Positions 7,063 through 17,528 of a stretch of 64,000 bases of DNA are shown piece by piece (the first letter of the stretch is position 1; every line of letters starts with the position of its first letter). Position numbers and translations under genes: made by a program. This stretch comes from a virus: positions 123,494 to 187,493 of the IMG/VR virus record IMGVR_UViG_3300020442_000006; one strand, given 5' to 3'. The notes below the pieces were generated by a model, which was given only the letters and a program-made list of their open reading frames with translations, did not search any database and was not told the origin of the DNA.

Positions 7063-7443
7063 TTATTCGACGCTTCTAATGATACTTGATTGATTGCTTC
7101 CTGTCAACATAGGTCCGATAACTCTCTGTCCTATGGGTGAGAGGATAAAACTGATGACTGTAAGAGCACCTGCGATAGTCCACATCTTTTTCTCTATCAT
7201 ACGGAGTCTTTCATCTACCAGACGGATGTCTCTCTCACATCCTTTCTTGATTGCATCTGTCTCTCTGGTGATGTCTTGATGTATTCTGTCAACTTTTTCA
7301 AACAAAATGTTATCTATCTCGTCTTGTTTGCTTAGTTTTTCATTGTGTACAGCAAGAAGTTGACCCATCTTTACAGAGTTCTCCTGTAATGAATCAACTA
7401 CTCGTTCGAGTCTCTCAATTATAGCGGTGTTAATATCAGACAT
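7063..7443 (-). CDS. coiled-coil protein with C-terminal membrane helix (XhlA/holin-like topology)
   Basis: A 126-residue protein starting at the ATG 7441-7443, which overlaps the stop of the preceding DUF3008-type gene. An N-terminal charged coiled coil (about residues 1-85, e.g. ERLERVVDSLQENSVKMGQ) is followed by one hydrophobic helix (MWTIAGALTVISFILSPIG). This layout recalls XhlA-like proteins that act with holins, and phage membrane spanins or anchors. There is no enzymatic motif. It ends the late 7-10 kb block. A lysis or membrane-anchoring role is only a guess. Confidence 0.65.
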   Translation of the reverse strand: MSDINTAIIERLERVVDSLQENSVKMGQLLAVHNEKLSKQDEIDNILFEKVDRIHQDITRETDAIKKGCERDIRLVDERLRMIEKKMWTIAGALTVISFILSPIGQRVIGPMLTGSNQSSIIRSVE

Positions 7444-9284
7444 TACATTGCTGCCTGGCGTTTCTCCCAATAATAGTGCATCACTTGAGCAGGAAGCATC
7501 CGAGTAATCTTAATACCTTTCAACCTCTCTGGTCTATAAATTTTACGAAGTCTTATCTTGACATCAGCAGGTGACTTACCTTGGAATATAAATTCAACGT
7601 CATCCATCTGCACAAGGAAAGATAGGTATCTTGCCTCGGTAGATTCACATATTTTATTTATGCCATCAGGAGATTTCTTACACTTTGCTTTCTTCTTTGT
7701 TAACTTTGGACCCTTACCTTTCAACTTGGCAGTACCACCCAACGGTTGATCCATACCTGCGGTTGGTCCGTTCTCATCAGCATCAGAGGAGAATCCTGCT
7801 GCACTAGCATTAGATCCTGTACTCATAGTAGGTGCACCTTCCTCGTGCACAAACTTCATACCCTTGATTGCTTTATCCTTAAGTGCCTGACGTTTCTTAG
7901 GATCCATATTCTTTTCGTAGTCTGCTAGTTTAGCAGCAAACTTTCTGTTATCCATCTTCTTGATAACTGCTCTGTCTTTCTTGTCAGGTCCTGTGTATGC
8001 TGCTTCATCAACAAACTTGACAGGCATTGATACTGTTCCTTTTCCTGGAACATACTTTGTAGTTCTAGGTTTCTTAGGATCATCACTCTTGAAGTCCCTA
8101 TGAATCTTAGCGTATTCCTTTTTGGTCATCTTCAATTCTTCTTTCTGGACCTTCTTCTTATCAAACTTCTTACCGATCTTACCACCAATCTTAGATCCAA
8201 CAACACCACCTACCACATCACCTACAGGTAGAGGACCGTCAAGTGCACCAAGAGCAAGTGCTCCACCGATACCACCTACAACAGAACCAATTCTCTCACC
8301 CTTACCAACCTTCTTATCTGCTGCCATCTTATTGATACGCTTCTTAGTGACAGCACTGAACTTCTCCAGTTGCATCTCTTCCTTCACGCCCTTAGTTTTT
8401 ACACCACGCTTTTCCTTGTGTGCTTTGTGTCTCTTATCCATTGCCACAAGTCTCTCAGCAGGATCAGCAGCGTTACCACCTTCACCTGTATGTCTTACGT
8501 TCCTGATAGATGCTTTACCATAGTTAGAACGACCACGTTCCTGACTTAATCTTTGACCGTCACTATCCTTTTGTCTTTCAAGAATAACCTCTTCGTTCTT
8601 TGGTTCTTCTTTTTTCTTTTTCTTTGATGCCAACTTACCACCTGCAATAGCACCTGCAGCACCACCTACACCGTGACCGATTGCTTTACCAACCTGTTTA
8701 CCAATGGCACCACCAACAAGAGGAACAGTTCCTGATCCTACTGCTTGACCAACAGCACCACCAATCTTTCTACCAACTGTAGAACCTACTGCATATCCTG
8801 CACCTGAACCAACTGCCTTACGAACTCTATTACCTTTCTTTGCAGTCAATGCTCCTGCAGTACCTGCCGCTGCTGTTCCTACGAACTCTTTAATATCTTC
8901 TTTCTTTTTCTTCTTACTAATACTTCCCTGTCTGGTGTTGCTATGATCTGCCCCACCTGGAACCACAGTCATTGCTTGTACTGCGTATGCTTCCTTATGT
9001 GTTTTGCCTGGCATTATTGTACCATCAGGCATCTTATGTGCATTCTTCTTAGGACCATAGGTGATACAAGGATCTTTACCACACCCACAGTTCTTTGGTT
9101 TTTTCTCTTCCCCAATCTTCTGAGGTAAATTCTTTTCTTTTGTTTTAGCAAACTTATTAACTGCCTTCGCCCCCATATCTTTTGCAGCACGTTTCAGTTC
9201 GGGCGATGGATCTTTCATCTCTCCCTTCTGGGTGGCACGAACCATTCCCATAAATTTACGTTGTGCTACGGATTTTGCAGGCAT
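7443..9284 (-). CDS. large Lys/Gly-rich DUF3008-type protein, probable virion protein
   Basis: A 613-residue protein opening MPAKSVAQRKFMGMVRA, the signature of DUF3008. It continues with a Cys cluster (NCGCGKDPC), then alternating low-complexity Gly/Ala/Val segments (IGGAVGQAVGSGTVPLVGG) and basic segments (KKKKKEE). The glycine-zipper-like segments near residues 135-215 and 330-365 could insert in membranes or pack together. A compact C-terminal domain begins near ARYLSFLVQMDDVEFIFQG. It lies in an operon with a late promoter at 10489 and an Ig-like virion protein, so virion association is likely. Biochemical role unknown. Confidence 0.65.
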   Translation of the reverse strand: MPAKSVAQRKFMGMVRATQKGEMKDPSPELKRAAKDMGAKAVNKFAKTKEKNLPQKIGEEKKPKNCGCGKDPCITYGPKKNAHKMPDGTIMPGKTHKEAYAVQAMTVVPGGADHSNTRQGSISKKKKKEDIKEFVGTAAAGTAGALTAKKGNRVRKAVGSGAGYAVGSTVGRKIGGAVGQAVGSGTVPLVGGAIGKQVGKAIGHGVGGAAGAIAGGKLASKKKKKEEPKNEEVILERQKDSDGQRLSQERGRSNYGKASIRNVRHTGEGGNAADPAERLVAMDKRHKAHKEKRGVKTKGVKEEMQLEKFSAVTKKRINKMAADKKVGKGERIGSVVGGIGGALALGALDGPLPVGDVVGGVVGSKIGGKIGKKFDKKKVQKEELKMTKKEYAKIHRDFKSDDPKKPRTTKYVPGKGTVSMPVKFVDEAAYTGPDKKDRAVIKKMDNRKFAAKLADYEKNMDPKKRQALKDKAIKGMKFVHEEGAPTMSTGSNASAAGFSSDADENGPTAGMDQPLGGTAKLKGKGPKLTKKKAKCKKSPDGINKICESTEARYLSFLVQMDDVEFIFQGKSPADVKIRLRKIYRPERLKGIKITRMLPAQVMHYYWEKRQAAM

Positions 9285-9655
9285 CAGAGGTCACTCAACT
9301 GTTTACTTACGGATGCATCAATCTCAACATAATCTAAGGTCCCGCATCCTGTCTCGGGGTATCTATTTAGATAGAGTAAATATGTTTTAAGGATGTCCCA
9401 ATACTGTTTGTCAACCTTGAAGACTAACAAAGGTATGGCAGCATCACCAAATACATTGAATAGTACGATCAAATGATTCAGAATCAAATGGTTACGAAGA
9501 ACCCCAGTCTTTATGTATCTCCCGAAGAGACGCTTCAAATATTTGAAGCGCATCATATCTTCAAGAAAATCATCATAAGTAACTGACTGGGGATTATCGT
9601 AGTGTTTCATAGCGAACATCATAAAGTTGTCCGCTGTGAGTATATCAAATTGCAT
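9284..9655 (-). CDS. conserved cyanophage protein (DUF7207-like)
   Basis: A 123-residue protein, MQFDILTADNFMMFAMKHYDNP, with a helical core (RFKYLKRLFGRYIKTG, RNHLILNHLIVLFNVFG) and the terminal YVEIDASVS. I recall the same protein in most T4-like cyanophages next to structural genes; the DUF7207 name is from memory. It starts 18 bases after the Ig-like protein gene and overlaps the end of the DUF3008-type gene by one base. No catalytic motif is visible. A part in morphogenesis is inferred from the operon. Confidence 0.65.
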   Translation of the reverse strand: MQFDILTADNFMMFAMKHYDNPQSVTYDDFLEDMMRFKYLKRLFGRYIKTGVLRNHLILNHLIVLFNVFGDAAIPLLVFKVDKQYWDILKTYLLYLNRYPETGCGTLDYVEIDASVSKQLSDL

Positions 9656-9672
9656 TACAAAGAAAGGTTTAA

Positions 9673-10458
9673 TTAACTAACGAAACTTAAAGTAGCGACA
9701 CTACTTACAACTTCTGCGGCACCCTTACTGGTGTTAATTTTAACTCTGTACTGGTTACCATCATTTGCTTCAGTCTGACCTGTCAATGCAAGAGATGCAC
9801 TGGTTGCACCAGATACATTACTGAATCTTCCAGAGGAAGATGTTCTCTTCTGCCACTGATAGGTGATAGTACCTGACTGATCCACAGTTGCTGCAACACT
9901 GAAGGTTGCTGCACCAGAAGATGTGTTTTGGTTAGCAGGTTGAGTACCAATAGTAATGGTCTCAAGCACGTCTGCTGCCACTGTATCATCAGCGTCGTCA
10001 CCAGATACGTTTGCTGCAACTCTAAGTGCTGCAAGTTTTTCTGCCTTGTGACGTGTAGTTCCACCTGCTGTGTTGTATGTTCTATACAACCACCAACCAG
10101 GTCCGTCAATACCACGAGTCTTGTTAGATGCGATACCATCTTCAGTCTCATCAACGAAGATAAGTTGATAGTCTGTGATGCTGTCGCCACCTTTAACTAC
10201 ATACTCAGCAACTGCCTTAGGAGGAGTTCTCCTTACAGCACCAGACAAACCTGCGTTTGTTGAACCTGCATATGCTTTGTGCAATTCGATTGCAGTTGTA
10301 CTTGTAACTTGTTTGACGATGTAAGCGACGTTTGCCAATTCTAGAACATCTCCGACAACAACGGTGTCGGCGGCATTCTTAGTAACTGTTGCGTCACCAT
10401 TTGTGACCGCGACATTATTGGAGAACGTTGCTGCGTCGATTTTGCCCAGAATGGCCAT
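9673..10458 (-). CDS. virion surface protein with C-terminal Ig-like domain
   Basis: A 261-residue protein. The N-terminal part (MAILGKIDAATFSNNVAV, then beta-rich repeats and RRTPPKAVAEYVVKGGD) resembles small capsid or baseplate-associated proteins of cyanophages. The C-terminal 90 residues, from TITIGTQPANQNT through ITYQWQKRTSS and DGNQYRVKINTS to SSVATLSF, form an Ig-like beta sandwich with the typical YQW and DGxQYRVxI strands but no disulphide Cys. Such domains decorate phage capsids and bind carbohydrates weakly. A perfect late promoter TATAAATA lies 31 bases before the ATG, supporting late, high expression. Confidence 0.75.
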   Translation of the reverse strand: MAILGKIDAATFSNNVAVTNGDATVTKNAADTVVVGDVLELANVAYIVKQVTSTTAIELHKAYAGSTNAGLSGAVRRTPPKAVAEYVVKGGDSITDYQLIFVDETEDGIASNKTRGIDGPGWWLYRTYNTAGGTTRHKAEKLAALRVAANVSGDDADDTVAADVLETITIGTQPANQNTSSGAATFSVAATVDQSGTITYQWQKRTSSSGRFSNVSGATSASLALTGQTEANDGNQYRVKINTSKGAAEVVSSVATLSFVS

Positions 10459-10768: not shown

Positions 10769-11176
10769 TTATGATCCTAAACCACGTCCTTTGTCGTAGT
10801 TATCTTTACCACCGTAACGTGCCATAGTGTTCACGTAATCTTTAGTAGTTTTGAAACCACGTTTCTTAGCATCTGCAGCAGTGGTATCTTTTTGACTCTT
10901 GCGCCTGTCTGCCATTGACTTGTACTTGCCAGTACCTACATCTGACTTAGCACCTTTCTTCTTCTTGATCTGACCAACCTCTTTGCCACCCTGCATATTG
11001 CGTACCATCCGCTTGACGCTTGCAATAGCAGAGTTCTTACCTGCACCACCTTTTTGAGTAGGTGTGCCTGCGGCAGGAGTATTGATACCAGTACGACCAG
11101 AAACTCTGCCAGTGGACTTACCAGTTTCTTTCTCGTACCGATTCAATTCGTTAAGGTATTCTCCGAAAGATTTCAT
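10769..11176 (-). CDS. small basic protein, conserved late-block gene
   Basis: A 135-residue, very basic protein beginning MKSFGEYLNELNRYEKETG, an opening shared by several cyanophage virion-associated proteins. The body is Lys/Arg/Gly rich (GQIKKKKGAKSDVGTG, SMADRRKSQKD) and likely disordered, ending GGKDNYDKGRGLGS. It overlaps the end of the 11176-11625 gene by one base. The high positive charge suggests binding of nucleic acid or of acidic capsid surfaces. No domain is recognised. Confidence 0.65.
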   Translation of the reverse strand: MKSFGEYLNELNRYEKETGKSTGRVSGRTGINTPAAGTPTQKGGAGKNSAIASVKRMVRNMQGGKEVGQIKKKKGAKSDVGTGKYKSMADRRKSQKDTTAADAKKRGFKTTKDYVNTMARYGGKDNYDKGRGLGS

Positions 11177-11626: not shown

Positions 11627-13732
11627 CTATTTACCAAAGTTCGGGAAGTTCTTCTTGAATAGTTCAGATGCTTCCTTGTGCTTTCCTTTGTTAGTGAGGT
11701 CCTTAGTTTGTTTTAGAACTTCACGCTTCTTCAACTGCTCTGGCGTTGGTTGTTCAGCAATGTACTTGCTGTATGCAAGACGCTCTCTCCAAGAATCAGC
11801 ATCAGGGTTACGTGCCTGTGCGATGTCGTGTTCGAAAGTTTCTTGTGCTAGTGCAAGGCGTCTTACCTTGTCCACTCTTGATTCTGTCATAGTCTCTTCT
11901 CCGAGTTTTCTTGCTAATTTATCAGACCCTTTAGAGATTGCTCTTGAGGTTTTACCAATAACTTTTTTACCAAGATTACCCGCTGCTTGACCAGTCTTCT
12001 TAACAGCACCGCCGACAGCACTACCTGTCTTCTTAACAGCACTACCTGCAGCACTAGCAGTTTTACCAACTACCTTAGCACCTGCCTTAGCAGTGCCTAC
12101 TGCTGCTTTACCACCTGCCTTAGCGACAGAACCTGCTGCTTGTGCAGTTTTACCAACCGCTTTGCCTGCAAGTTTAGCACCACCAACTGCAGTTTTACCT
12201 GCAACTTTAGCGGTACCTACTGCTGCTTTACCTGCAACTTTAGCAGTACCTACTGCTGCCTTACCTGCAAGTTTTGCTCCACCGACTGCCACTTTACCTG
12301 CTGCCTTAGCACCTGCTCCGACTGCCTTTCTAAGTCCTCTGCCGACTGCACCTGCAGCACGACTGAGAAGACCTGGACCTGCCTTCTTCTTAGGAGCGGA
12401 TGAACCACCACCTGACTGAGGTTGTGGTCTGGAGTCTCCACCTGTGGATACTGGTCTGTTGTTTGAGGAAGAGGATCCACCACCACCTGATGATGAACCA
12501 CCTGATGAACCTGATGAACCACCAAGTCCACGCTGTCTGCCTTGAGAGAATTCTCTCTTAGCAGCAGAACCTGCACGTTGTGCAAGACCTGATGCATAAC
12601 CTGCACCACGAACTGCACCTTTTGCACCTGCTTTGGCACCTGCCTTAGCAGCACGTCCTGCCATCCCAAGTCCTTTCTTAACGATAGAACCTGCTTTAGA
12701 TGCAGCGCCTTTCAATCTCTCTGCTCTCTTACCTCTATTGATGCGTGCGGCAGCATCCTTAGATGATTTGACTGCAGAGTCGTAATACTTATCTGATTCA
12801 ACAAGTAGTTCGAATCCATCCAAGATGTCAAGTGCTTCAGATAGATACTGTTCTGATTCGAAATCTAGAAGCGCCTCTACAACAACATCTTGTAGATCCT
12901 GATCTGTAAGGATGTCAAACTCTTCACCGAGTTCGTCTACAACATCCCATACCCATTCCTCGTTAGCGGGTACACAGTTAGGAACGTCCTTACCGTTCTT
13001 TTTCTTGGTACCTTTAGCAACGTAACCGTCCCAACACTTGTCAGCGCCGACGTTCTTACGTGCTTGTTTAAGTCCTTCTTCAACCTGAGTCTTAGGAGTC
13101 GAACCTTTTGCTTTGATTGATCTTTGATTCTCGCATTGAGGATCAACGGTTGACTGCTTTTCCTTAGGTGTATCAATCTTAGGAGATGCAGCACTTGGTT
13201 TGTTGTTCAGTGTTGCTGCATTAGAAGTTTCCTCCTTGATCTTTGCACGCTTTGCCTTTGTCTTGGCAAGGATTCTATCGCGTGCTTCAGATGCTGCCTT
13301 GTTAGGACCATCATATGCCATCGCACCTTTCTGCATTCTTGGTGCTCTGATCTTATCTACACCATCACCTTTGTAGATACCATAGGCACTACCTTCGGTG
13401 ACATCATCTTCGACATCGTGCTCAATAACTTTACCGTTCTCATCCTTCTCGTGATGCTCAACGTTGAGTGTCTTAGGATAATCCTTATCACCTTTCTTTG
13501 CAGGTGCTTCTCCACGCTTTCTCTTAGCGTGAATGTTATCCCATAAACCTTTCTTACCTTCGATGATAACTTCAGCGATTGCCTTCTCTGTTGGAGTGAC
13601 AAGACGCTCCTCAAGATAAGCATAGCGTGCTTCACCAGTGAAGTTATGCTCTGCGTATTCAATAACGTAGGTAACTGATTGTACGTCCGAAGGTGAATAC
13701 TTCAGAAGTTTCGAAGTAATTTCTAAATCCAT
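11627..13732 (-). CDS. large Ala/Lys/Gly-rich virion-associated protein
   Basis: A 701-residue protein. The N-terminal 150 residues are folded-looking (MDLEITSKLLKYSPSDVQSV, EERLVTPTEKAIAEVIIEG). Near residue 230 is CWDGYVAKGTKKKNGKDVPNC, a motif I recall in several cyanophage structural proteins. An acidic helical region is followed by a long low-complexity part (about 340-620) made of repeated AGKAAVGTAKV-like units and a Ser/Gly run. The C-terminus is again charged and helical. An ACTAAATA late-type box at 13755 lies 23 bases before its start. Likely an internal or capsid-associated virion protein; it carries no enzyme motif. Confidence 0.65.
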   Translation of the reverse strand: MDLEITSKLLKYSPSDVQSVTYVIEYAEHNFTGEARYAYLEERLVTPTEKAIAEVIIEGKKGLWDNIHAKRKRGEAPAKKGDKDYPKTLNVEHHEKDENGKVIEHDVEDDVTEGSAYGIYKGDGVDKIRAPRMQKGAMAYDGPNKAASEARDRILAKTKAKRAKIKEETSNAATLNNKPSAASPKIDTPKEKQSTVDPQCENQRSIKAKGSTPKTQVEEGLKQARKNVGADKCWDGYVAKGTKKKNGKDVPNCVPANEEWVWDVVDELGEEFDILTDQDLQDVVVEALLDFESEQYLSEALDILDGFELLVESDKYYDSAVKSSKDAAARINRGKRAERLKGAASKAGSIVKKGLGMAGRAAKAGAKAGAKGAVRGAGYASGLAQRAGSAAKREFSQGRQRGLGGSSGSSGGSSSGGGGSSSSNNRPVSTGGDSRPQPQSGGGSSAPKKKAGPGLLSRAAGAVGRGLRKAVGAGAKAAGKVAVGGAKLAGKAAVGTAKVAGKAAVGTAKVAGKTAVGGAKLAGKAVGKTAQAAGSVAKAGGKAAVGTAKAGAKVVGKTASAAGSAVKKTGSAVGGAVKKTGQAAGNLGKKVIGKTSRAISKGSDKLARKLGEETMTESRVDKVRRLALAQETFEHDIAQARNPDADSWRERLAYSKYIAEQPTPEQLKKREVLKQTKDLTNKGKHKEASELFKKNFPNFGK
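12075..12340 (-). repeat. in-gene repeats encoding (A/V)GKAAVGTAKV-type units
   Basis: The plus strand shows repeated phrases such as cctactgctgctttacctgc. They encode consecutive GTAKVAGKAAV and GGAKLAGKAAV units within the 701-residue protein. The region is likely prone to slippage and length variation. Confidence 0.75.
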
Positions 13733-13753: not shown

Positions 13754-14911
13754 CTATTTAGTTGACCCTGTTTTTCTGAAGTCACTGAATTTTTTGACCA
13801 ACTGTCCAGGTGTCATCGCTTGGACTGCGTGTCTATATGTATCAGTGCCGACCTTCCAGGTGTTTCCACTGCCATCGTCTGCTGACTTATGCAGTTCTTT
13901 TACTTCCATAATAGAAGTTAACCAGACATTGAATTTCCAATTCTCTGGTGTCTCAAAGATTACATAATTAGTTCCTCTTCTGATGACCGTACCTCTTACA
14001 CCTGTGTCTAGGTGTTCGACAATACAACCAAGTGGGAATACTCTATCTTCGAAGAACGCTTCACGAAGATTCTCTGAATCAAGTTTAGGAGCGATGTCCC
14101 AAAGTTCAGCAACCTCTTCCTGTTCCTGTTCAACGATACCCATACCTGCACGAACTTCCATCATTAGTTGTTCAGCAAGTTTGATGTCACCACCAGGGAC
14201 ACCTTGGGCAAAACCTTCTAAGTCACCCGCCGCTGCCATTGCTCGCAACTTGGATGCACTCATACCTTCTACACCTTCAGCATCAGGATCTCTTTCTCCT
14301 GCACTGATCACATTGAGTTCTTCAAATTCATATGCCTGACCGTTATACTTCTCAAGTAATGACTTGAATTCTGATACACGATCAGAACCAACAACCATAG
14401 TTACACCTGAGTAACCCTCTTGGTTGAGGTTGGAAAGTACATTGAAGATGTTAGACATATCACCATCGTTGACGATAGCGTCAGCGTGATTAGGGAACAT
14501 CTTTTGCATAAAATCAATCTTAACATCAGGTTCTAGTGGGTTCTTTTTAGGATCCACAGTACGTGATGGATAGATTCTATAGTTATCAGCACCCTGTTCA
14601 GATACAGTGTTCAGTAGTTTCTCGTGACCAACAGTAGGAGGATTAAAACGTCCAAAGGTTAGAGCGATAGTACCCAGACCTTCACCACTATTAATATGCT
14701 CGTCTTCTGCTGCTCCTTGATTGGAGTTCATCTGTGCTTGTTCTGCCTCTTTACCATCGACAGGCACCAGACGATTACCTCCTTCAGACTTAGCAACGAT
14801 GTTACCCTGCCTATCAGCATAGTAACCGTGACCTGCGTGTTGGAGACCTCTCTTAGCAGCAACCTCACCTGCAGCGGTGCGTGCTTCAGTTATAAACTGA
14901 CTGAACTTCAT
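13754..14911 (-). CDS. nucleotidyltransferase-domain protein of the late block (NMNAT-like motifs)
   Basis: A 385-residue protein starting MKFSQFITEARTA. A central Rossmann-like domain is evident: LTFGRFNPPTVGHEKLL carries the HxGH-type signature (here TVGH) of adenylyl/cytidylyltransferases. DNYRIYPSRTVD, VTMVVGSDRVSEF and MSASKLRAMAAAGD (the ISSTxIR-type motif) follow in the order known from NadD/CoaD/CCT enzymes. This fold transfers AMP or CMP to a phosphorylated substrate. The last 100 residues (VFPLGCIVEHLDTGVRGTVIRRG) look like a separate beta domain. The start at 14911 is chosen because the GATAAATA late promoter at 14936 leaves little leader for the upstream ATG at 14932. Substrate unknown. 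Confidence 0.7.
   Translation of the reverse strand: MKFSQFITEARTAAGEVAAKRGLQHAGHGYYADRQGNIVAKSEGGNRLVPVDGKEAEQAQMNSNQGAAEDEHINSGEGLGTIALTFGRFNPPTVGHEKLLNTVSEQGADNYRIYPSRTVDPKKNPLEPDVKIDFMQKMFPNHADAIVNDGDMSNIFNVLSNLNQEGYSGVTMVVGSDRVSEFKSLLEKYNGQAYEFEELNVISAGERDPDAEGVEGMSASKLRAMAAAGDLEGFAQGVPGGDIKLAEQLMMEVRAGMGIVEQEQEEVAELWDIAPKLDSENLREAFFEDRVFPLGCIVEHLDTGVRGTVIRRGTNYVIFETPENWKFNVWLTSIMEVKELHKSADDGSGNTWKVGTDTYRHAVQAMTPGQLVKKFSDFRKTGSTK
13755..13762 (-). promoter_or_regulatory. late-type promoter variant ACTAAATA
   Basis: ACTAAATA on the minus strand, 23 bases before the ATG of the 701-residue protein. It differs from the T4 late box by C in the second position, as do 50624, 55819 and 63099. 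Confidence 0.5.
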
Positions 14912-14935
14912 TGATATACTGGTGTTTTCCATATC

Positions 14936-14943
14936 TATTTATC
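14936..14943 (-). promoter_or_regulatory. late promoter GATAAATA
   Basis: Matches NATAAATA on the minus strand. It lies 25 bases before the ATG at 14911 and only 4 before an in-frame ATG at 14932. It overlaps the stop of the ligase-like gene (14942). Confidence 0.65.
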
Positions 14944-16135
14944 ACCCCCAATTTTTTTCTACTGTGAAGTTCGCTCTAGAGAACTCCAAACGATCCACAA
15001 GTTTGAGGGCAGAACCTGATTTGATCGCTACAAAACCCTCTGGTGCAGTAACTCTGTAACCATTGGGTGTCTTAATATATGTACCGATGTCTTGAACCTT
15101 TCCTAGTTGTCTGACAACTACAGTCTTAGCAGCGATCAAATTCATATAGGATGCGACAGTCATATAGACAGCACGTGAATTTGACTTCAAGAACTTCAAA
15201 CCATTTGCTTTGATGGTCTGATATTTTTTCTTGGTTGCTTCTTGTTTCTTAGACTGGATCTCTTTGTCTAGTGCTGCTGAATAGAATGCAGCAAATCCTG
15301 CTGCAACTCTCTGTGCATTGACAATAGGTTTACCAGTACGAATGAATGAGTTGAAATAAACTTTGAACATAGCAGAGAGCATAAACTTACCCTCTCCTTG
15401 ATCCTGTAGGATGTCCAAGAATCTAGATGCTTGCTTAAGAGAACCTTCAGCACGGTTGACTAGCAGATCATACTTACCTCTCTCTGCAGCATTAAACCTA
15501 GATGCATCTGTAGCATCTGTAAAGTCTGAACTAAACACTGCAACGTTGGGTGTTGCCTGCATTCTTTTTACATCAACACCAAACCCAGGTTTCATATCTC
15601 TGAGTGTAGGACCACCAGTATATGTGGTATGAAATACAATACCAAGTTGACTGGTTGCTACCTTCTTACCCATAGGTGTGTTGGTAGGTACAGCATATGT
15701 GATGGTGTTTGGCATAAAAGTATGACACTTCTGACCATTCATCTTCTTTGTTGTCACATCACCTTTGGTGAACAACAAATCACCCTGCAGTACACCATTC
15801 ATAGGTACCTGAGGAAGGAGACGCAAGCACATCTTTAGTTTCTTTGCCAGTTCTCCACTATAGAATCTATCTACATCTTCATCATTCATACAAAGTTTTG
15901 GCATCTTAGCAAAGACACCCTTAGTACCAACAAAAAACCTACCAGTTGAGGGATGCTTGCCACAAATAACAGCAGGAGCACCGTCCCATTTGGTAGTAAC
16001 ACCGACACCTGACACAGGTTCGGTGAGCATCTTGCCAAGTTCCCTTAGGAATGCGATAGCGTTACGTCCTCCGTTCGAACCTTGGTTTAGGATGTCATCT
16101 TCAAGGTGTTCGAGGTGGGTATTTTGCTTTGCCAT
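14942..16135 (-). CDS. putative ATP-dependent ligase-fold nucleotidyltransferase (DUF6267-like)
   Basis: A 397-residue protein starting MAKQNTHLEHLEDDIL. It shows an ordered set of motifs like those of DNA/RNA ligases and capping enzymes. TTKWDGAPA (Lys about residue 49) fits motif I, KxDG. VLQGDLLFTKGD (about 116-126) fits motif III. LGIVFHTTY (about 164-172) fits motif IV, and DVKRM or VAIKSG could supply the motif V lysine. If correct, it would form a covalent AMP-lysine intermediate. I recall the protein as an unnamed conserved family (DUF6267). It lies 7 bases after a nuclease-like gene, which suggests a cut-and-seal pair. Activity is inferred from motif order only. Confidence 0.6.
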   Translation of the reverse strand: MAKQNTHLEHLEDDILNQGSNGGRNAIAFLRELGKMLTEPVSGVGVTTKWDGAPAVICGKHPSTGRFFVGTKGVFAKMPKLCMNDEDVDRFYSGELAKKLKMCLRLLPQVPMNGVLQGDLLFTKGDVTTKKMNGQKCHTFMPNTITYAVPTNTPMGKKVATSQLGIVFHTTYTGGPTLRDMKPGFGVDVKRMQATPNVAVFSSDFTDATDASRFNAAERGKYDLLVNRAEGSLKQASRFLDILQDQGEGKFMLSAMFKVYFNSFIRTGKPIVNAQRVAAGFAAFYSAALDKEIQSKKQEATKKKYQTIKANGLKFLKSNSRAVYMTVASYMNLIAAKTVVVRQLGKVQDIGTYIKTPNGYRVTAPEGFVAIKSGSALKLVDRLEFSRANFTVEKNWG

Positions 16136-16142
16136 ACCTTTA

Positions 16143-16976
16143 TTATACCTCGTATCGGACCACAATGGCATTTTGACGGACACCTGTAATTTTGTCCTTA
16201 CCCCTGCCCTTCAATGCCATCCTGACACCTGCCTGTTTCATCACACCTCTGACTACTTTCTCATCAATTTCTTTCACACCATCCTCAGTGAGGATATGAG
16301 ACGCTGCTCTGTCATCATTGTTGAATAACATAGCACCTGTCATACACTCGTGTGTAAGATTATACTTGAAGCAATCATATGCAGCAGCACCATCAGGTTT
16401 TGATTTCGAACCTAGCACTTCTTGCAACTGTTCATTCAATCCACCTGCCTTCTTTATATCTGAAAGGATTCTTTTTGCTGTTGGTTGATCAACAGTTCCC
16501 TTTGCGTTCTCACATTTATTACCAATCTGCTCAAGGATCAACTGTAAGTAACCAAGTGTCTGTGCGTTAGTAGATCCACCACCACAATCCTTAGCAGTCT
16601 TTGCTAATACTTTTTGGAATACTGCTACAGACTTATCAATGCCTGCAGATGTCAACTGATATGACTTGCCCCATTTCATAGAGCATTTGTATGTCACACC
16701 ACCTGACTTAAACATAATGTCTGTCTTTGGTTCTTCTCCACCACCAGACATCTTTTGGAATGACTTATAATATTTCTGCCTTGCTTCTATATTATTACCA
16801 GTAGGTGCCATAGACTCAACAATTCTATCTGCAGCAGACTTTATATCATTTGGGATAGCACCAATACGTCCTGATGCATCCTCAAAATCTTTCTGGTTTT
16901 GCGAACTCTTATTAATAATACGACTCGTTGCCGAGTACATCACAGCGTGTTCAAATTGCAATCCTTTGTTTGCCAT
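16143..16976 (-). CDS. putative PD-(D/E)xK-like nuclease
   Basis: A 277-residue protein, MANKGLQFEHAVMYSATSR. The segment PKTDIMFKSGGVTYKCSMKWGKSYQLTSAG (written here in pieces: KTDIMF, then YKCSMKWG and SYQL) fits the PD-(D/E)xK pattern: an Asp, about 13 residues, then a beta strand ending SxK, followed by a Gln. An N-terminal Glu (QFEHAV) could be the fourth residue. Such folds act in restriction, repair and packaging. The C-terminal half is helical with Cys residues of unknown use. It is directly followed by the ligase-like gene. No overall homologue is recognised. Confidence 0.5.
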   Translation of the reverse strand: MANKGLQFEHAVMYSATSRIINKSSQNQKDFEDASGRIGAIPNDIKSAADRIVESMAPTGNNIEARQKYYKSFQKMSGGGEEPKTDIMFKSGGVTYKCSMKWGKSYQLTSAGIDKSVAVFQKVLAKTAKDCGGGSTNAQTLGYLQLILEQIGNKCENAKGTVDQPTAKRILSDIKKAGGLNEQLQEVLGSKSKPDGAAAYDCFKYNLTHECMTGAMLFNNDDRAASHILTEDGVKEIDEKVVRGVMKQAGVRMALKGRGKDKITGVRQNAIVVRYEV

Positions 16977-16997
16977 TGCACTAAACTTTTTAAGTAT

Positions 16998-17528
16998 TTA
17001 TGAAACCCAATCTGGTTTACGTTCTGGCAAACGGAGATAGTTATCTTTGACCCAAGGTTTTGAAGCGATATACCTTTTATATGCTGTGAATGTATCTATT
17101 GACTGGTCGTGTTTGAATTCATCGTACATTGCTCTGGCAAAGGGTGTAGGATGCTTCCCGCTCCTGCCAGTAGGATCGCCAGTAGGAAATATTTTACGTG
17201 CGTGTTCAAGAGTGAATTGACACGAGTGAACTTTGCCATAGCGAAGAGTGTATTCATTGCAGAGTGCAAGACCGTGAGTGATTAACCATCGCCAGTTGAG
17301 CACAAAACTGTTTGCCCATACTGTACAGGGATGATTACGAAAGGCACCCTTGTCTGTCTTGTAAGGAGTACCGTCAAGTTTTGGTAGGTCACCGAAACCG
17401 TGACCCCACTTTTCTGATGCGACAATAGAAAGCATCTGACAGGTTTCAAGTGGCATTTTGACAATGTGCTTGTCAGGTAGACTTCTGGCAGATGCTATTG
17501 GATCAGGATCAGTAACGAAGATATTCAT
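16998..17528 (-). CDS. conserved phage protein MNIFVTDPDP, function unknown
   Basis: A 176-residue protein starting MNIFVTDPDPIASARSLPDKH, followed by VKMPLETCQMLS, HPCTVWANSFVLNWRWL and a C-terminal YLRLPERKPDWVS. I recall this family as widespread in phages, including T4-like cyanophages, but know no tested function. The ATG at 17526-17528 was chosen over an in-frame extension, which would read through a structured leader. Conserved Asp, Lys-His and Trp residues suggest an enzyme rather than a structural part. A strong sigma70-like promoter lies about 220 bases upstream. Confidence 0.65.
   Translation of the reverse strand: MNIFVTDPDPIASARSLPDKHIVKMPLETCQMLSIVASEKWGHGFGDLPKLDGTPYKTDKGAFRNHPCTVWANSFVLNWRWLITHGLALCNEYTLRYGKVHSCQFTLEHARKIFPTGDPTGRSGKHPTPFARAMYDEFKHDQSIDTFTAYKRYIASKPWVKDNYLRLPERKPDWVS

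Follow-up and report, generated by a model that had tools for sequence, protein, structure and literature searches.

What are a nuclease-like, a ligase-like and a nucleotidyltransferase-like gene doing side by side in the late block of a marine T4-like cyanomyovirus? The question was raised by an earlier note on a 64,000-nucleotide stretch of viral DNA (the window; positions 123,494 to 187,493 of IMG/VR virus record IMGVR_UViG_3300020442_000006, which totals 187,493 bp), which proposed that the three products form a cut, adenylylate and seal system, perhaps packaged in the virion. All three open reading frames (ORFs) are indeed found in a row on the minus strand, nuclease-like gene first and nucleotidyltransferase-like gene last (Table 1), with T4-GC1453, GC71 and GC190 as their counterparts, in the same order, in S-SM1. 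The trio is conserved as a block, which supports the notion of a cassette. Its best explanation, for which we see about an even chance, is a late-expressed T4-type head-cargo kit composed of a conserved pair, the ligase-like protein DUF6267 and a nicotinamide mononucleotide adenylyltransferase (NMNAT)-like protein, with an interchangeable restriction-endonuclease-like gene in front.

The position just in front of DUF6267 is hypervariable. We gathered loci carrying DUF6267 in viral contigs, in genomes and in named phages; this sampling was driven by a few query proteins, so that the percentages given here are not population frequencies. The slot directly upstream of DUF6267 was filled by a gene of at least 150 amino acids (aa) in 343 of the 361 loci with room for one, and these genes fall into 33 families unrelated by BLAST. 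Among DUF6267 pairs at 60-70% identity, related slot genes were still detectable in 28% only, and the NMNAT-like genes downstream had a median identity of 69% in the same class. Exchange is gene-exact: two loci (L208 and L210) are identical at 96.3% of DNA positions upstream and 97.8% downstream, yet carry unrelated slot genes, with breakpoints at most about 25 bp from the slot gene ends. In two others (L077 and L273) the slot gene is shared, with 79% DNA identity, although identity between their DUF6267 proteins is only 37%. By these cases, the nuclease gene moves as a unit between the left flank and the conserved pair. Such an exchangeable allele at a hypervariable position, which the earlier note had not recognised, speaks for a role in conflict more than for simple repair.

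Slot proteins of unrelated families share a nuclease-type signature. Of the seven largest families, five have a conserved D-x(12-24)-SxK, a pattern that fewer than 0.3% of column shuffles reproduce in any one of them, while the largest family has D...SxK with a 53-residue spacing and family 8 the classical PD...ExK. The replacement of ExK by SxK is a known variant among PD-(D/E)xK nucleases. When 36 proteins representing 12 BLAST-unrelated slot families were aligned together, the D and the K were the sole invariant columns, with the S present in at least 90%, and motif-bearing families cover about 199 of the 239 non-redundant loci. Profile comparisons linked family 2 with families 7 (95%) and 10 (82%), and family 5 with family 8 (76%). 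Family 2 also matched the type II restriction enzymes of PADLOC (REase_II, 6.5e-11 to 9e-14) over a span that includes the motif. Searches of the slot proteins against Pfam and NCBIfam returned no matches, and profile searches of the Protein Data Bank (PDB) with the slot families returned chance matches only, or none.

The slot protein of this phage carries the same signature. G5, E9, K84, D86, S99, K101, Q107 and S110 are invariant among its 20 relatives, and E9, D86 and S99xK101 sit on adjacent strands in the structure model (predicted local distance difference test, pLDDT, 87). It thus has the conserved acidic residue followed by [D/E/S]xK on the next strand that characterises PD-(D/E)xK nucleases, in which a glutamate on an upstream helix is also frequent. 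We therefore class it as putatively restriction-endonuclease-like by motif, a case built on the invariant E9, D86, S99 and K101 and on the motif common to the slot families.

The ligase-like protein belongs to Pfam DUF6267 over the full profile (429.5 bits, cut-off 27). In 106 non-redundant DUF6267 proteins, K45, D47, G48, K68, Q113, D115, H165, E362, G363 and K374 are 100% invariant (add 4 for numbering in the full-length protein), as are H and E/D residues at the extreme N-terminus. The signature present in 106/106, namely the KxDG lysine, the Q and D of QGD, the EG of EGFV and the K of LKLVDR, is arranged like motifs I, III, IV and V of the ligase/capping superfamily, as is characteristic of covalent nucleotidyltransferases. 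The earlier note had placed the key lysine at about residue 49, which is correct with the start at ATG 16135, and had named loss of the lysine and acidic residues in homologues as a ground for abandoning the idea; both are invariant. It had also read GIVFH as a ligase motif. This is a conserved strand, yet it is not motif IV, which is EGFV (362-365) and is followed by motif V, LKLVDR. The ATG at 16135 is preceded by an AAAGG ribosome-binding site and lies 7 bp behind the nuclease stop, which ends at 16143, so that the two genes do not overlap; a GTG at 16183 was rejected as the start in its favor.

Structural comparison gave weaker signals. When the AlphaFold model of DUF6267 (pLDDT 83.7) was compared with viral models (BFVD), RNA ligases were, after its own family, among the first functionally named matches, albeit weak, the best being that of phage Atu_ph07 (E 4e-3, probability 0.90, but a template modelling score of about 0.2). 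Chains of the NAD+-dependent ligase LigA were among its weak PDB matches (E 1.6 or worse). The hhalign comparisons of DUF6267 with T4 Rnl1 and Rnl2 were not significant, the best local piece against Rnl1 being the motif IV-V region; because Rnl1 against Rnl2 fails likewise, this test decides nothing. With the Pfam families tried, no other recognisable DNA or RNA ligase was found in seven cyanophage genomes including this phage, whereas T4 does have such enzymes. The invariant motifs and the weak structural matches support DUF6267 as a putative ligase-superfamily enzyme. In one public collection 468 phage records, the majority from cyanophages, matched DUF6267; no plasmid did. In a short form (about 300 aa; L113, L115, L201-L280) the helical insert that separates motifs III and IV is mostly missing, and the same slot-gene families occur beside long and short forms.

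For GC190, the earlier assignment to the HxGH/ISSTxIR-type nucleotidyltransferases held. GRFNPxxxGH and SASxxR are invariant among its relatives, and 31/32 of them match TIGR00125 (adenylyltransferase/cytidyltransferase superfamily). The best specific models are adenylyltransferases of nicotinamide or nicotinic acid mononucleotide (NMN/NaMN), with NadD matching 28/32 and NadR 21/32; as all these matches stay below the curated cut-offs, we call the protein NMNAT-like only. Judged by its sequence, it looks like an NMN adenylyltransferase and not like an end-modifying enzyme. GC190 has already been published as a virion protein and NMNAT homologue (PMC3037559, PMC10665884). Its C-terminal module (residues about 283-386, window 13777-14086), with the pattern GxxVxxxxTGxxGxxxRxGxNY...WL, recurs in phage protein families of unknown function (phrog_22379, phrog_4808). 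In S-PM2, GC190 is fused to DUF6267. The S-PM2 reference record (L114, NC_006820) has this fusion split over two frames (7971-9768), and a 591-aa S-PM2 entry of BFVD (A0A0M6VVW4) shows the DUF6267 match along its entire length; the frame split may be a sequencing or strain difference.

The link to the phage head comes from N-terminal sequences. The functional start of the NMNAT-like gene is probably the ATG at 14911, from which the protein begins with a capsid-targeting-like sequence containing an [LI]xE cleavage site. The targeting and cleavage residues of the T4 capsid-targeting sequence are known (PMC9026906). We found the pattern in 103/129 GC190 homologues with a long N-terminus, and in 6.1% of all ORFs of the loci compared with 0.055% after shuffling. 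GC190 was detected in S-SM1 virions by proteomics (PMC3037559), and a cytidylyltransferase was detected in virions of S-CREM2 (PMC10665884), a phage assigned to one cluster with S-H34 (PMC10665884), whose GC190-type protein is tagged (MKGFSNFLIEA). The fused GC190 protein of S-PM2 carries no tag and, as PMC3037559 cites Clokie 2008, was not detected in virions. In DLP6-like (non-cyanobacterial) loci, the tag lies on DUF6267 in 60/80 and on the slot protein in 35/80 (shuffled rate 0.04%), and one locus (L381) has all three proteins tagged.

Late-promoter-like sequences precede both the slot nuclease gene (CATAAATA) and, as already noted, the last gene of the trio (GATAAATA). Across the loci, ATAAATA was present near the slot gene start in 89/219 (12 expected) and upstream of the NMNAT-like gene in 27/101 (3 expected), but before the ligase-like gene in only 2/239 (8.4 expected). 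This distribution suggests two late transcription starts, one for the nuclease and ligase-like genes and a separate one for the NMNAT-like gene. All 12 copies of ATAAATA in the window lie on the coding minus strand, which suggests that many of them represent genuine late promoters.

The features of the locus accord with a kit that is packaged in the head and acts at entry: synthesis late in infection, head tags, one variable member of restriction type and a conserved pair of enzymes for nucleotidyl transfer. The three products would be made late and enter the prohead through T4-style capsid-targeting N-termini, the nuclease and ligase of this phage riding with the tagged NMNAT-like protein. 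A gp21-type protease would trim the cargo after [LI]xE before its injection with the genome. The nuclease would then cut host (or rival) DNA at phage-specific sites, and cut sites differing between phages would account for the fast turnover of the slot. Self-protection or repair might fall to the conserved pair: the ligase-like protein would limit or mend damage that the phage's own nucleic acid suffers on entry, and the NMNAT-like protein would perhaps give it NAD or nucleotide support.

Several results weigh against such a kit. Foldseek found no significant PDB match for either the nuclease or the DUF6267 model, although the nuclease model is confident. The PD-(D/E)xK fold is for this reason not claimed as demonstrated for the nuclease, and the nuclease and ligase guesses of the earlier note draw on invariant motifs together with weak structural similarity, not on any significant PDB hit. 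Database homology to restriction enzymes was seen in just one slot family, and the window's own family showed none to known type II enzymes in the PADLOC search. The lineage of the window has a tag on the NMNAT-like protein alone, which makes packaging of the nuclease and the ligase an extrapolation; the proposed virion location is supported for the last gene product (capsid tag, published mass spectrometry of orthologues). The upstream-side neighbours of ORF154 are also absent from the S-CREM2 virion proteome list (PMC10665884). A cognate methyltransferase varying with the slot was not seen in a search that covered the neighbouring genes and not the whole genome, which leaves self-protection unexplained. 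Finally, DUF6267 has no nuclease neighbour in S-H34, S-PM2 and P-SSM2. In S-H34 it still has KIDG, QGD, EGFV and KLVDR, but it lies far from the NMNAT-like gene and adjoins a non-nuclease gene, which argues against a machine of three fixed parts. On this ground we rejected a nuclease as a requirement of every DUF6267 locus, and in view of the three exceptions we regard DUF6267 and the NMNAT-like protein as the core, to which the nuclease is a common but exchangeable addition. Nor is there any sign that nuclease and ligase work on the same ends, and the closed reaction first envisaged, in which they cut, adenylylate and seal one substrate, finds no support in that form.

These exceptions bring in a rather unlikely alternative, in which the conserved pair is an entry-repair and counter-defence kit. 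As an RNA or DNA ligase carried in the virion, DUF6267 would reseal tRNA or genome breaks made by host defences, the NMNAT-like protein would restore NAD+ drained by NADase defences, and the nucleases would be separate takeover or counter-defence proteins merely sharing the slot. Persistence of the pair without an adjoining nuclease agrees with this, as do the S-PM2 fusion, the RNA ligases as first named structural neighbours of DUF6267, the lack of another recognisable ligase in the seven cyanophage genomes and the NMNAT-like best models of GC190; NAD+ salvage by phages has also been described (PMC9503650). This alternative leaves unexplained why a nuclease-type gene stands directly upstream in most loci and travels as an allele of one position.

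The gene-exact replacement between conserved flanks could instead reflect selfish homing-type nucleases that spread by cutting genomes with another allele, with DUF6267 and the NMNAT-like gene as unrelated neighbours serving as recombination arms. T4 and cyanophages are known to have free-standing homing endonucleases (PMC3037559), and the intronless enzymes of T4-like phages (SegF, SegG, cyanophage T4-GC228/282) are likewise exchanged between conserved flanks. We consider this improbable here. The slot is almost never empty, unlike an optional insertion with frequent empty alleles; its gene has its own late promoter core and moves among very different DUF6267 backgrounds; one slot family is kin to type II restriction enzymes; and the capsid tags on DLP6-like slot proteins would be pointless for homing.

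There is little to recommend a third scheme, an NAD+-dependent ligation cycle in which DUF6267 is a divergent NAD+-dependent DNA ligase whose released NMN is recycled to NAD+ by its partner. The NMNAT-like models for GC190, the S-PM2 fusion, the weak LigA matches and the invariant H and E/D at the N-terminus of DUF6267 would suit it. However, the LigA matches are not significant, the viral structural neighbours are RNA ligases, and motif IV of DUF6267 reads EG, which it shares with ATP-dependent ligases and T4 Rnl1, and differs from the DG of LigA. Least credible of all, despite the late promoter cores, the head tags and neighbouring genes that also resemble internal head proteins, are three non-enzymatic head proteins keeping enzyme folds as packing modules, for their catalytic residues are fully invariant while the remainder diverges.

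The nearest functional parallel to the proposed head-cargo kit is the chlorovirus virion. It contains restriction enzymes without the matching methyltransferases, and the DNA of the host is broken down within minutes (PMC7019647). There too, particle-borne restriction-type nucleases are delivered with the genome, and they are held responsible for the early degradation (PMC7019647). Chloroviruses are, however, viruses of eukaryotic algae whose restriction enzymes are linked to methyltransferase genes, and the review describes no ligase-like or NMNAT-like partners, swapping slot or T4-type capsid tag (PMC7019647). The T4 proteins IPI, IPII, IPIII and Alt are also products of late genes, have a gp21-cleaved N-terminal capsid-targeting sequence, are injected with the DNA and vary between related phages, and IPI acts in restriction conflict (PMC9026906). 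Unlike the kit, they are small basic proteins or an ADP-ribosyltransferase, and their variation has not been described as allele swapping beside a conserved enzyme pair.

The single components also have known relatives. T4 Rnl1, Rnl2 and the DNA ligase gp30 have the KxDG lysine and motifs I, III, IV and V in the same order as DUF6267, and the motif IV-V region of Rnl1 (EGYVAVMKDGSHFKI) resembles that of DUF6267 (EGFVAIKSGSALKL). Sequence and profile similarity to the T4 ligases is not significant, and only DUF6267 has, in its long form, an extended helical insert separating motifs III and IV, and virion tags in relatives. The phage proteins NadM and NadR have the same HIGH-family NMN adenylyltransferase domain as GC190, in which our searches found no Nudix or kinase domain and which differs further in its capsid tag and extra C-terminal module. 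Surveys of NAD+ salvage (PMC9503650) do not treat GC190 jointly with DUF6267.

In the literature searched, which left outside most subscription journals and all preprints, DUF6267 was not mentioned, and no paper described it as a ligase-superfamily enzyme, the swapping restriction-type slot or tags on all three proteins; priority is not established by this. The partner of DUF6267 had been a virion 'cytidyltransferase' without demonstrated function. Scattered hypothetical genes now become one testable system, a ligase-like/NMNAT-like pair with an interchangeable restriction-type nuclease and, in some relatives, tags on all three. This matters for the ways in which T4-like phages break down the DNA of the host or keep out rivals, and it opens up a large natural collection of restriction-type nucleases not described before, along with a divergent ligase family. 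A bolder, rather unlikely reading is that T4-like phages carry a weapon of 'restriction without modification', in which a polymorphic set of site-specific nucleases, swapped as alleles of a single slot, is packed in the head and injected, with the universal ligase-like/NAD-related pair as antidote protecting the DNA of the phage itself. If true, phages would possess their own equivalent of polymorphic toxin systems, directed against hosts or co-infecting phages.

Table 1 Positions of the trio and its sequence features in the window.
Feature	Position	Strand	Details
Nuclease-like slot gene	16143..16976	(-)	277 aa; phrog_22045; orthologue of S-SM1 T4-GC1453
Putative catalytic motif D86 ... S99-x-K101 of the slot nuclease	16674..16721	(-)	Invariant in 20 relatives
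Ligase-like gene, DUF6267	14942..16135	(-)	397 aa; T4-GC71; PF19782 E 1.8e-128
Codon of the KWDG lysine (residue 49), putative nucleotidyl-lysine	15989..15991	(-)	K in 106/106
Motif IV-V region of the ligase-like protein (EGFVAIKSGSALKLVDR)	14990..15040	(-)	E362, G363, K374 invariant
NMNAT-like HIGH nucleotidyltransferase gene	13754..14932	(-)	T4-GC190, labelled 'cytitidyltransferase'; phrog_395 2.5e-87
Capsid-targeting-like N-terminus MKFSQFITEA, putative gp21-type cleavage site ITE|A	14882..14911	(-)	Pattern as T4 IPII/IPIII MKTYQEFIAEA
Late-promoter-like CATAAATA	16995-17002	(-)	Precedes slot nuclease gene
Late-promoter-like GATAAATA	14936-14943	(-)	Precedes NMNAT-like gene

On the same strand, the trio is preceded upstream by uvsX, gp41, mazG, a 2OG-Fe(II) oxygenase gene and a denV-like gene, an arrangement close to that of S-SM1. 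Directly downstream of the NMNAT-like gene (window 11627-13732, minus strand) lies the gene of a 701-aa Lys/Ala/Gly-rich protein that is probably virion-associated; it matches phrog_764, which is annotated 'cytidyltransferase', yet shows no such motif. A second capsid-targeting-like N-terminus (MKSFGEYLNELN), the sole other one in the window by the pattern used, begins the protein encoded at 10769-11176 (minus strand), which from this feature is likely another internal head protein. Within this block, a 613-aa protein (7443-9284, minus strand) with a comparable Lys/Ala/Gly-rich composition is possibly one as well.

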